15,171 nt of DNA from Desulfocapsa sp. (GTDB lineage: Bacteria > Desulfobacterota > Desulfobulbia > Desulfobulbales > Desulfocapsaceae). The DNA lies in NCBI GenBank assembly GCA_029934915.1, contig JAOZLI010000031.1:1-15171 (forward strand). The letters are read 5' to 3'. The notes under the pieces were generated by a model. The model did no database searches. It saw only the letters and a list, made by a program, of their open reading frames with translations, and was not told the origin of the DNA. Shown here piece after piece: positions 12,812-15,138 of the stretch (position 1 is its first letter; each line of letters begins with the position of its first letter). Both the position numbers and the translations under genes were made by a program.

Positions 12812-13726
12812 TTACAAGTCTATTAATTTTTCAAGTATTGCTTTATGCATGTGCATTTTATTTTCGGCCTGATCAAAGGCTACACACTGATCTGATTCGA
12901 GAACGTCCTCTGTTATTTCTTCTTCACGATGGGCCGGCAAACAATGGAGCACGATGGCATCAGCAGGTGCTTTTGCCATAAGATCACTGTTAACCTGATA
13001 GGGGGCGAATATTTTCATTCGTTCCTCCTGTTCATCTTCCTGCCCCATGGAAGCCCAGACATCGGTGTTCACCACATCGGCACCTGCCATGGCCTCTTCG
13101 GGATTGCGTACCAGGGTGATAGGCTTTGTCGCCTGTTTCCGGGCACTTTCCAGAATCTGCGAATCTGGGTCATATCCTTCCGGACAGGCCATCACCAGCT
13201 CAAAACCGATGATTGATGCTGCCTGAATCCAGGAGTTAGCCATATTGTTACCATCGCCTATCCAGGCAATTTTCAGGTTTTCAATGCTGCCCTTTTTCTC
13301 AATCACCGTCATCACATCACTTAAAATCTGGCAGGGATGATGCAAATCAGTGAGCGCGTTAATCACGGGAACAGTAGCATATTTGGCAAGTTCGGTGACC
13401 ACTTCCTGACCAAAGGTTCGTATAACCAGACCGTCGACATAGCGTGACATAACACGTGCCATATCCTTCAACGGTTCGGAGCGGGCAAGTTGCGTGTCAC
13501 GGCCGGACAGAAATATGACCTGCCCCCCAAGACCATACATGGCCGCTTCAAAGGAAACTCTGGTACGGGTTGAGACTTTCTCAAAAACCATTCCCACGGT
13601 TTTCCCAGAAAGCTGCAGGTGTTGAACTCCGGAAAGACGTTCCTGTTTCAGGGTGATAGCTCTGGTAATAAAACCAAGCAATTCTTCTTTAGTAAAACCT
13701 TGTAATGACTCTAAATGGCGTAACAT
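12812..13726 (-). CDS. argF: Ornithine carbamoyltransferase
   Basis: This enzyme makes citrulline from ornithine and carbamoyl phosphate. The carbamoyl-phosphate loop STRTR is at 52-56, HPCQ at 130-133, the ornithine-loop motif SMG at 226-228 (DVWASMGQ), and the catalytic HCLP at 261-264. These distinguish it from aspartate carbamoyltransferase. The length of 304 residues is normal. It is the first gene of the long minus-strand run, followed by argG after the palindromic element. The Shine-Dalgarno (GAAACGAG) is weak. A leader of about 140 nt separates it from a good -10 box. No palindromic ArgR box is apparent in that leader. Confidence 0.97.
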   Translation of the reverse strand: MLRHLESLQGFTKEELLGFITRAITLKQERLSGVQHLQLSGKTVGMVFEKVSTRTRVSFEAAMYGLGGQVIFLSGRDTQLARSEPLKDMARVMSRYVDGLVIRTFGQEVVTELAKYATVPVINALTDLHHPCQILSDVMTVIEKKGSIENLKIAWIGDGNNMANSWIQAASIIGFELVMACPEGYDPDSQILESARKQATKPITLVRNPEEAMAGADVVNTDVWASMGQEDEQEERMKIFAPYQVNSDLMAKAPADAIVLHCLPAHREEEITEDVLESDQCVAFDQAENKMHMHKAILEKLIDL

Positions 13727-13947: not shown

Positions 13948-14286
13948 TCATTTGGTGAGCTCCCGGTACATCTCTTCGTTAAACCCAACGTACACGCGCT
14001 TACCTACTCGAGCAGTTGGTGCCCGCAGGTTCCCGGTACGGCCAAGGCACACCTTCAGTATTTCGTCCTTTTGTCCATCATCTGGGACAAAATCCTGCAC
14101 CTTCTTTCCTCGTCCCACGGAAAGTTTTTCTGCTGTTGCAATCATTTCCCAGGCACCATCAGCCTTGATTACATTTTTTCGCGCATCTTCAATTTCATCT
14201 ACCTGTACATCTGCCTTCTCAAGAGCCTCTTGAGCTTTGGTACAGGATTTTCAGCCCTTTCGTAAATACAACCAATCGATCTTCAT
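13948..14286 (-). CDS. ArsC/Spx-family selenoprotein (in-frame UGA read as selenocysteine)
   Basis: Reading through a TGA at 14253-14251, one open frame gives a 112-residue protein, the usual length of ArsC/Spx/YffB-like thioredoxin-fold proteins. It starts MKIDWLYLRKG, then U12-K-S-C15, then TKAQEALEKADV. U12 falls exactly where this family has its N-terminal redox cysteine after the first beta strand, giving a UxxC motif. The C-terminal half has GNLRAPTARVG (cis-proline region) and VGFNEEMYREL, as in ArsC-like folds. The ATG at 14286 has AAGGAG 9 bases upstream. A stem-loop right after the UGA fits a bacterial SECIS. Without recoding there would be only an 11-residue peptide, and an internal ATG start at 14145 would lose the active site. 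The likely role is a thiol/selenol oxidoreductase; the substrate is unknown and arsenate reduction is not shown. Confidence 0.85.
14202..14253 (-). promoter_or_regulatory. UGA codon and predicted bacterial SECIS element
   Basis: The UGA is 14253-14251. Downstream on the transcript an outer stem CCTGTAC (14246-14240) pairs perfectly with GTACAGG (14208-14202). An inner stem CTCAAG (14234-14229) pairs with CTTGAG (14223-14218), leaving the apical loop AGGCT. The loop begins 22 nt after the UGA, inside the 16-37 nt range known for bacterial SECIS elements, and it carries the guanines expected near the tip. SelB would bind here to bring Sec-tRNA. The fold was worked out by eye, without an energy calculation. 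Confidence 0.78.
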
Positions 14287-14422
14287 CTCTGCCTTCTCCT
14301 TGTGGATTTCTCGTATTTTCATGTAACTTGATATAACTACAACGTAAAGACTACATAGTGGGGAAGAATATGGCAACTGCAAAGAGACAAAAGACCAACT
14401 ACTTTTCAGCGGACTACAACAG

Positions 14423-14548
14423 TCAATCGCTGTTTTTGATCTTATCAAGAAGATTTTTTTGAATACGCTGAGAAAGGGACAATTTCCGATCCATTGATTC
14501 TGAAATCATACAGCTTATTTGTTTGCAGCTAAATATCCAGTGACGCAT
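14423..14548 (-). pseudogene. Truncated zinc-finger anti-sigma factor remnant (41 codons)
   Basis: This short frame starts ATG at 14548, with GGGGGGAAG just upstream and 11 bp after the sigma-factor stop. It reads MRHWIFSCKQISCMISESM, then DRKLSLSQRIQ. That is the typical opening of the small zf-HC2-like anti-sigma proteins encoded beside ECF sigma factors (CK-x-(I/V)-S-x-x-(I/V)-S-E-S-x-D-R-x-L-S-L). The expected continuation with the H-x3-C-x2-C zinc ligands is absent: the frame ends after KNLLDKIKNSD at a TGA (14425-14423). Either an internal segment was deleted or the 3' part has decayed. No other frame downstream restores the motif. It is too short to be a working anti-sigma of this type. 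Confidence 0.5.
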
Positions 14549-14559
14549 GGCTTCCCCCC

Positions 14560-15138
14560 TTATCCTTTCCCAGCAAACCAGTTTACTTCAAGACAACGCC
14601 TAAGCAGCATTCTCGCCCGGTACAAGATGACCCAACAGTTGTTTTTTCCTGTCTGAAAAAGCTCACATATCTCAGCGGTCGTCACCCCTTCTATTTCACG
14701 CAGGGTGTAAACTTTGGCCATCTTTTCGGGCATATCCCCAAGACAGGCATGAATAACAGTCATAAGCTCTTTCCGTTCATAAACATTCTTGGGATCTCCG
14801 CCCCAGTCACCCGGTTTGATTTTCCATTTTTCCTTTTCGTTAAACAGGCTATCCGTACTGTAGGCAAAATCTTCAATGCTGGCATCAGCCGACTCAGGTG
14901 TTAGTTTTCGGTAATAATCTATTACTTTATGCTTCAGGATACCGATCAGCCAGGTACTCACAGTAGATCGCCCGGAAAATTTTTCGCGGGAACGATAGGC
15001 TGCAAACAGGGTTTCCTAGACTAGATCCTCTGCGGCAAAGGAGTCACGTACTCTGGCCCGGGCAAATCGATACAGTGTGTCACCATGCTGATCAAGCCAG
15101 GTTATGGAAGCATTTTCCTCTTTACTTTCTGCGGGCAT
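14560..15138 (-). pseudogene. ECF-type RNA polymerase sigma factor interrupted by an in-frame amber codon
   Basis: The full frame starts at ATG 15138 (MPAESKEENA; GGAG 6 bases upstream) and would give 192 residues, normal for an ECF sigma factor. Region 2 (about 15-75) has YRFARARVRDSFAAEDLV, then a TAG at 15018-15016 (codon 41), then ETLFAAYRSREKFSG and STWLIGILKHKVIDYYRK. Region 4 (about 125-182) has CLGDMPEKMAKVYTLREIEGVTTAEICELF and YRARMLLRRCL, ending EVNWFAGKG. The TAG sits where sigma factors have the Gln of DLVQETF, so CAG to TAG is the simplest origin. A GTG at 14961 could restart translation but would remove most of region 2, which recognises the -10. Both flanks of the TAG are well conserved, so the lesion is recent, is suppressed, or is a sequencing error. 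Confidence 0.72.

Follow-up and report, generated by a model that had tools for sequence, protein, structure and literature searches.

A probable selenocysteine codon in an ArsC/Spx-like gene of family NF041106 from Desulfocapsa sp.

ArsC-like selenoproteins are listed in PMC1794560, one of them from Desulfotalea psychrophila, and 'Arsenate reductase 2, UxxC' is listed in PMC2398784. An arsenate reductase-like UxxC protein is also listed in PMC9312934. A table of PMC13188914 contains the entry 'Arsenate reductase-like protein, NF041106, UxxC' and cites PMC2398784 for it, and the 2008 entry is therefore taken to be the NF041106 family. As catalogued in these lists, the UxxC ArsC-like selenoprotein family is already in print (2008-2026). 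The D. psychrophila protein resembles the one presented here in having selenocysteine (Sec), in being named ArsC-like, and in coming from a deltaproteobacterium; it likely belongs to the same family. A literature search found no described function for the NF041106 family, and nothing on ArsC selenoproteins of Desulfobulb- bacteria.

The locus described here lies in a 15,171-nucleotide stretch of Desulfocapsa sp. DNA (the window; contig JAOZLI010000031.1), and its features are collected in Table 1. The gene comprises one frame of 112 codons on the minus strand, laid out as AGGAG, 9 bases, ATG, 10 codons, TGA, 100 codons, and a final TGA. The first TGA is codon 12, and its reading as Sec gives a product with the sequence RKG-U-KSC near the N-terminal start. 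When this TGA is taken as a stop, the frame is cut into two open reading frames of 65 codons each (13948-14145 and 14251-14448), and the Sec reading recovers the gene that is otherwise split. The frame, the TGA, the UxxC motif, and the ribosome-binding site are all as given in a preliminary description of this DNA, read from the sequence. The same description called the piece at 13948-14145 start-less, which is wrong, as the open reading frame list shows that it opens with an internal ATG. The genuine stop of the gene is likewise a TGA, so the cell has to distinguish two TGAs within one short gene. Three places in the window combine a TGA, a cysteine at a distance of three residues, and a following open stretch of 60 codons or more; of these, the protein-family comparison covered the selenoprotein locus.

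Table 1. Positions of the selenoprotein gene, its elements, and the adjacent gene in the window
Feature	Position	Strand	Details
ArsC/Spx-like selenoprotein gene (predicted)	13948..14286	minus	112 residues, Sec at 12; stop TGA 13950-13948
In-frame TGA (codon 12) read as selenocysteine (U12), first residue of UxxC	14251..14253	minus	U/C in 74/74 distinct genes (pattern demanded U or C)
Ribosome-binding site AGGAG	14296..14300	minus	9 bases upstream of ATG 14286-14284; read from sequence
Putative bacterial SECIS hairpin	14218..14234	minus	7 bp stem, GGC loop 14227-14225, 23 nt behind TGA
argF, next gene downstream (context only)	12812..13726	minus	ORF; 85-88% identical (tblastn) to genes in L020-L022

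The occurrence of the TGA at a conserved active-site position, the presence of the decoding genes, and the SECIS-like hairpin that follows argue that codon 12 is decoded as Sec, with a probability of about 0.96. The proposal that the UGA-split gene encodes a selenoprotein was made in the preliminary description, and it is supported by the family score, by the Sec or Cys of relatives, and by the Sec machinery. The translated product matches the NCBIfam model NF041106, 'ArsC family (seleno)protein', with 128 bits against a cut-off of 85 and over model positions 1-107 of 107. It is the only NF041106 match in its own genome. The comparison with the catalogued 'Arsenate reductase-like protein, UxxC' shows a family match above the cut-off, UxxC with the same place of Sec, and the same length, and no difference between the family and the gene of the window was found. 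By these sequence features, the gene very probably encodes a selenoprotein of family NF041106. Matches to this model occur in 168 of the 257 genomes of the host's order, and exceed the cut-off in 165 of the 257. The closest named relatives are Desulfocapsa assemblies with 79-83% identity (6 loci), and a tblastn search against plasmids gave no match to the selenoprotein.

The relatives were compared at codon 12 in 76 loci, the window included, of which six came from sequence records and 70 from the genomes of the order (the window's own being L043). Two were duplicates. Forty of the stretches read were chosen by hand from the matches listed, for spread and for the remaining listed Cys cases. 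Among the 74 distinct genes, codon 12 is TGA in 69 and Cys in five; all 76 loci fitted the motif pattern, which itself demanded U or C at this position. Sec or Cys is therefore found in the homologues at the position where the preliminary description had proposed to look for it. The five Cys genes all fall under one genus label (g63). Among the matches listed, five had no internal stop (G242, G241, G238, G237, and G239), and the rest had one TGA. Serine is present at U+2 in 74/74 distinct genes, and cysteine at U+3 in 73/74, where the pattern allowed only Cys or Ser.

This distribution bears on the possibility that the gene is a pseudogene or a sequencing error, with the TGA as a nonsense mutation in what was once a Cys gene. 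The draft state of the assembly and the unexplained in-frame stop in the adjacent sigma-factor gene are in line with such an origin. In contrast, the TGA is found at the same codon in 69 of the 74 distinct genes, in many genera, which makes a base error at codon 12 very unlikely. The presence of the Sec machinery in the genome is also against it, and a pseudogene or error is an extremely improbable explanation of the locus.

The machinery was sought in the same genome, as the preliminary description had suggested, in an assembly of 606 contigs that is 83% complete. The tRNA-Sec (71.5 bits, cut-off 47, anticodon tca), SelA (604 bits), and SelD (377 bits; L015, G000:C454:77-1018, minus strand) are all present. 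SelD has one in-frame TGA, and is thus probably a selenoprotein itself. SelB is also present, as two pieces at contig ends: one, which closes its contig, covers profile positions 1-121, and the other, which opens a different contig, covers 108-580. Their scores of 207.6 and 182.6 bits are both below the cut-off of 242, and their family identity was confirmed separately. The complementary coverage of the profile suggests a single gene split between the two contigs. A further elongation-factor-like match to the SelB profile in this genome reaches 191.4 bits (C316), and below-cut-off matches were present in 14/14 control genomes, two of which also had matches over the cut-off.

The RNA behind the TGA contains a hairpin of bases 20-36, numbered from the TGA, in which seven pairs enclose GGC. 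According to the limits given in PMC13188914, a bacterial SECIS (bSECIS) element has a loop of 3-9 nt, a stem of 4-16 bp, and a G within the first two loop bases, lies 16-37 nt from the UGA, and has an energy of at most -7.5 kcal/mol. The hairpin lies within these limits, with a loop of 3, a stem of 7, G as the first loop base, a distance of 23 nt, and -10.3 kcal/mol for the 46-base fold. The well-placed stem-loop of the preliminary description is thus present at 14234-14218, but by energy it is no better than chance in this sequence. When the 46-base stretch is shuffled 200 times, 32 of the shuffled sequences fold equally well or better, and the z of the native sequence is -0.95 with dinucleotide shuffles and -0.76 with synonymous-codon shuffles. 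The mean z at the hairpin of 69 Sec genes is -1.21, compared with -0.07 to -0.35 elsewhere in the same genes. Mean folding energy fails as a discriminator of Sec and Cys genes, since the five Cys genes have a mean z of -1.0 at the same place. A scan of the window at the Rfam gathering thresholds gave no match, which says little about bacterial SECIS elements.

The pairing pattern across relatives is more informative than the energy of the single sequence. In the 30 Sec genes that have Glu at U+8, read in a register taken from the window's own fold, 92% of the stem cells are paired, whereas slid registers give 32-60%. None of 2000 shuffles reaches 92%, in a test that the kinship of the genes makes generous. 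The five Cys genes still have 74% paired in this register. The loop-initial G is found in 30/30 of these Sec genes and, in their own register, in 37 of the 39 other Sec genes. It is found in 0/5 Cys genes, one of which has G as the second loop base. The 39 other Sec genes form a second hairpin class with 83% paired against at most 58% in slid registers, and this class is the weaker of the two because its register was chosen after the folds were viewed.

The Glu codon that gives the loop G is GAG in 30/30 Sec genes, compared with 104 of the 209 Glu codons elsewhere in them. The four Cys genes that also have Glu at this position all use GAA (4/4), and the remaining Glu codons of the Cys genes comprise 15 GAG and 13 GAA. 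As GAA would encode the same residue, selection on the RNA appears to be the simplest reading of the GAG preference, in a comparison with few Cys genes, all of them close relatives. The Sec and Cys genes together provide a natural experiment on the conservation of a SECIS within a coding region.

The name ArsC-like, used in the preliminary description, agrees with the family name, but sequence and fold are closer to Spx. The Pfam ArsC model (PF03960) gives 20.3 bits, below its gathering cut-off of 24. An AlphaFold2 model built from an 11-row alignment has a mean pLDDT of 92.8, and its best solved matches by Foldseek are Spx structures (E 4e-5; TM 0.52-0.58 and rmsd 5.7-7.4 over the first seven matches). 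Spx is also the top solved relative by sequence, weakly (E 0.0036), and U12 is aligned to the first Cys of the Spx CxxC. The likeness to Spx (e.g., 6gho and 3l78) comprises a thioredoxin-type fold, CxxC where the protein of the window has UxxC, and the motifs R-x-P and G-[FY]-N-E shared in sequence alignments. In contrast, Spx has Cys instead of Sec and is a transcription regulator, and the protein of the window scores far under the Spx model cut-offs. The catalogued UxxC ArsC-like family thereby gains a further member, which is nearer to Spx than to classical arsenate reductase.

A true arsenate reductase with Sec as its nucleophile would account for the family name and for the weak Pfam ArsC match below cut-off. 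None of the open reading frames of the window was recognised as an arsenic gene when their list was read by eye, and the top sequence and fold matches are Spx proteins with CxxC in place of UxxC; an arsenate reductase is thus very improbable. A CxxC-like thiol switch or reductase appears better supported, as Spx ranks first by both predicted fold and sequence and U12 falls on the first Cys of Spx. The same likeness to the nearest solved relative would fit an Spx-like transcription regulator that binds to RNA polymerase and uses its Sec-Cys pair to sense oxidants. The scores with the Spx/MgsR model TIGR01617 (22.2 bits against 75.05) and with the Spx model NF002459 (21.6 bits against 123) are against this role, and it is improbable.

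The protein is instead likely to be an oxidoreductase acting through UxxC, to judge from its motif and relatives. SelB with Sec-tRNA would read the TGA as Sec, with the hairpin assisting. The product would be a small thiol-disulfide (or persulfide) oxidoreductase with a thioredoxin fold. The selenolate of Sec12 would attack a disulfide, a persulfide, or a peroxide-derived bond of the substrate, and Cys15 would resolve the selenyl-sulfide.

The gene neighbourhood in the window includes argF and argG downstream. In three Desulfocapsa assemblies (L020-L022), the selenoprotein gene is part of a row of arginine genes, flanked by argD and argF (by Pfam for L021 and L022). Pfam OTCace matches the argF counterparts of both L021 and L022. 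The loci L020-L055, 36 in all, have in many cases a flank of 1.5 kb and in some a shorter one, and nine of them show part of a rubrerythrin-like gene behind the selenoprotein gene. These nine are L020 (a fragment beside an N run), L021, L028, L030, L042, L046, L050, L051, and L054. The other 27, the window and L022 included, do not show this neighbour. When its sequence is followed further upstream, this neighbour proves to be a fusion of rhodanese and rubrerythrin. At an E-value of 1e-20 or lower, 186 of the 257 genomes of the order have a match to the fusion. The Desulfocapsa sp. genome has its fusion on another contig and with its own TGA (L103; G000:C440:10792-11580, minus strand). The neighbourhood link between selenoprotein and fusion is not general, and the two are not adjacent in this genome. 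The L103 fusion lies 44 bases from the contig end, and its upstream neighbour is thus unassembled.

The fusion was compared in 22 loci, comprising L103, 19 further best matches (L106-L124), L020, and L021, a sample that favours close relatives. Compared over 48 bases starting at the active-site codon, 20 of them are distinct. The rhodanese active-site codon is TGA in 11 of these and Cys in nine, and the fusion stands directly behind an ArsC-like gene in 18 of the 20, the exceptions being L103 and G107. A hairpin with 6/6 pairs follows the TGA in 11/11 Sec copies. Read in the Sec-copy register, the full hairpin is found in 0/9 Cys copies, which have two to five pairs; a shift of register reveals a shorter stem of five pairs in three of the nine (L113, L123, and L124). 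The sequence contrast between Sec and Cys copies is clear, though not absolute. Rhodanese selenoproteins with UxxG are listed in PMC13188914, the main text of which contains the word 'rubrerythrin' 0 times, and the Sec fusion may be among these listed UxxG rhodaneses. A literature search, with most subscription journals outside its scope, found no description of a Sec rhodanese-rubrerythrin fusion.

The presence of the fusion gene next to the selenoprotein gene in some related genomes weakly suggests that the protein acts in the redox balance of sulfur or peroxide. That the selenoprotein works jointly with the fusion protein is doubtful. More doubtful still is a two-selenoprotein unit, in which the UxxC protein would be the redox partner of a fusion with a Sec rhodanese nucleophile (YUHSG), and persulfide and peroxide would be handled together in sulfur-cycling bacteria. 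Both are set lower because the fusion neighbour is lacking in 27/36 loci, some of them short. The pair of fusion and selenoprotein is nevertheless a more interesting lead than the selenoprotein alone, and the Sec fusion behind the selenoprotein gene in some relatives provides a concrete, testable hypothesis for the role of the family.

The window also contains an ECF-type sigma-factor gene at 14560-15138 on the minus strand, with an in-frame TAG at 15018-15016. Pyrrolysine at this TAG is not favoured, as the best PylS match in the genome, which is 83% complete, has 27.1 bits against a cut-off of 178.15. Within the genus, one genome (G115) carries an intact relative of this gene, at 69% identity.
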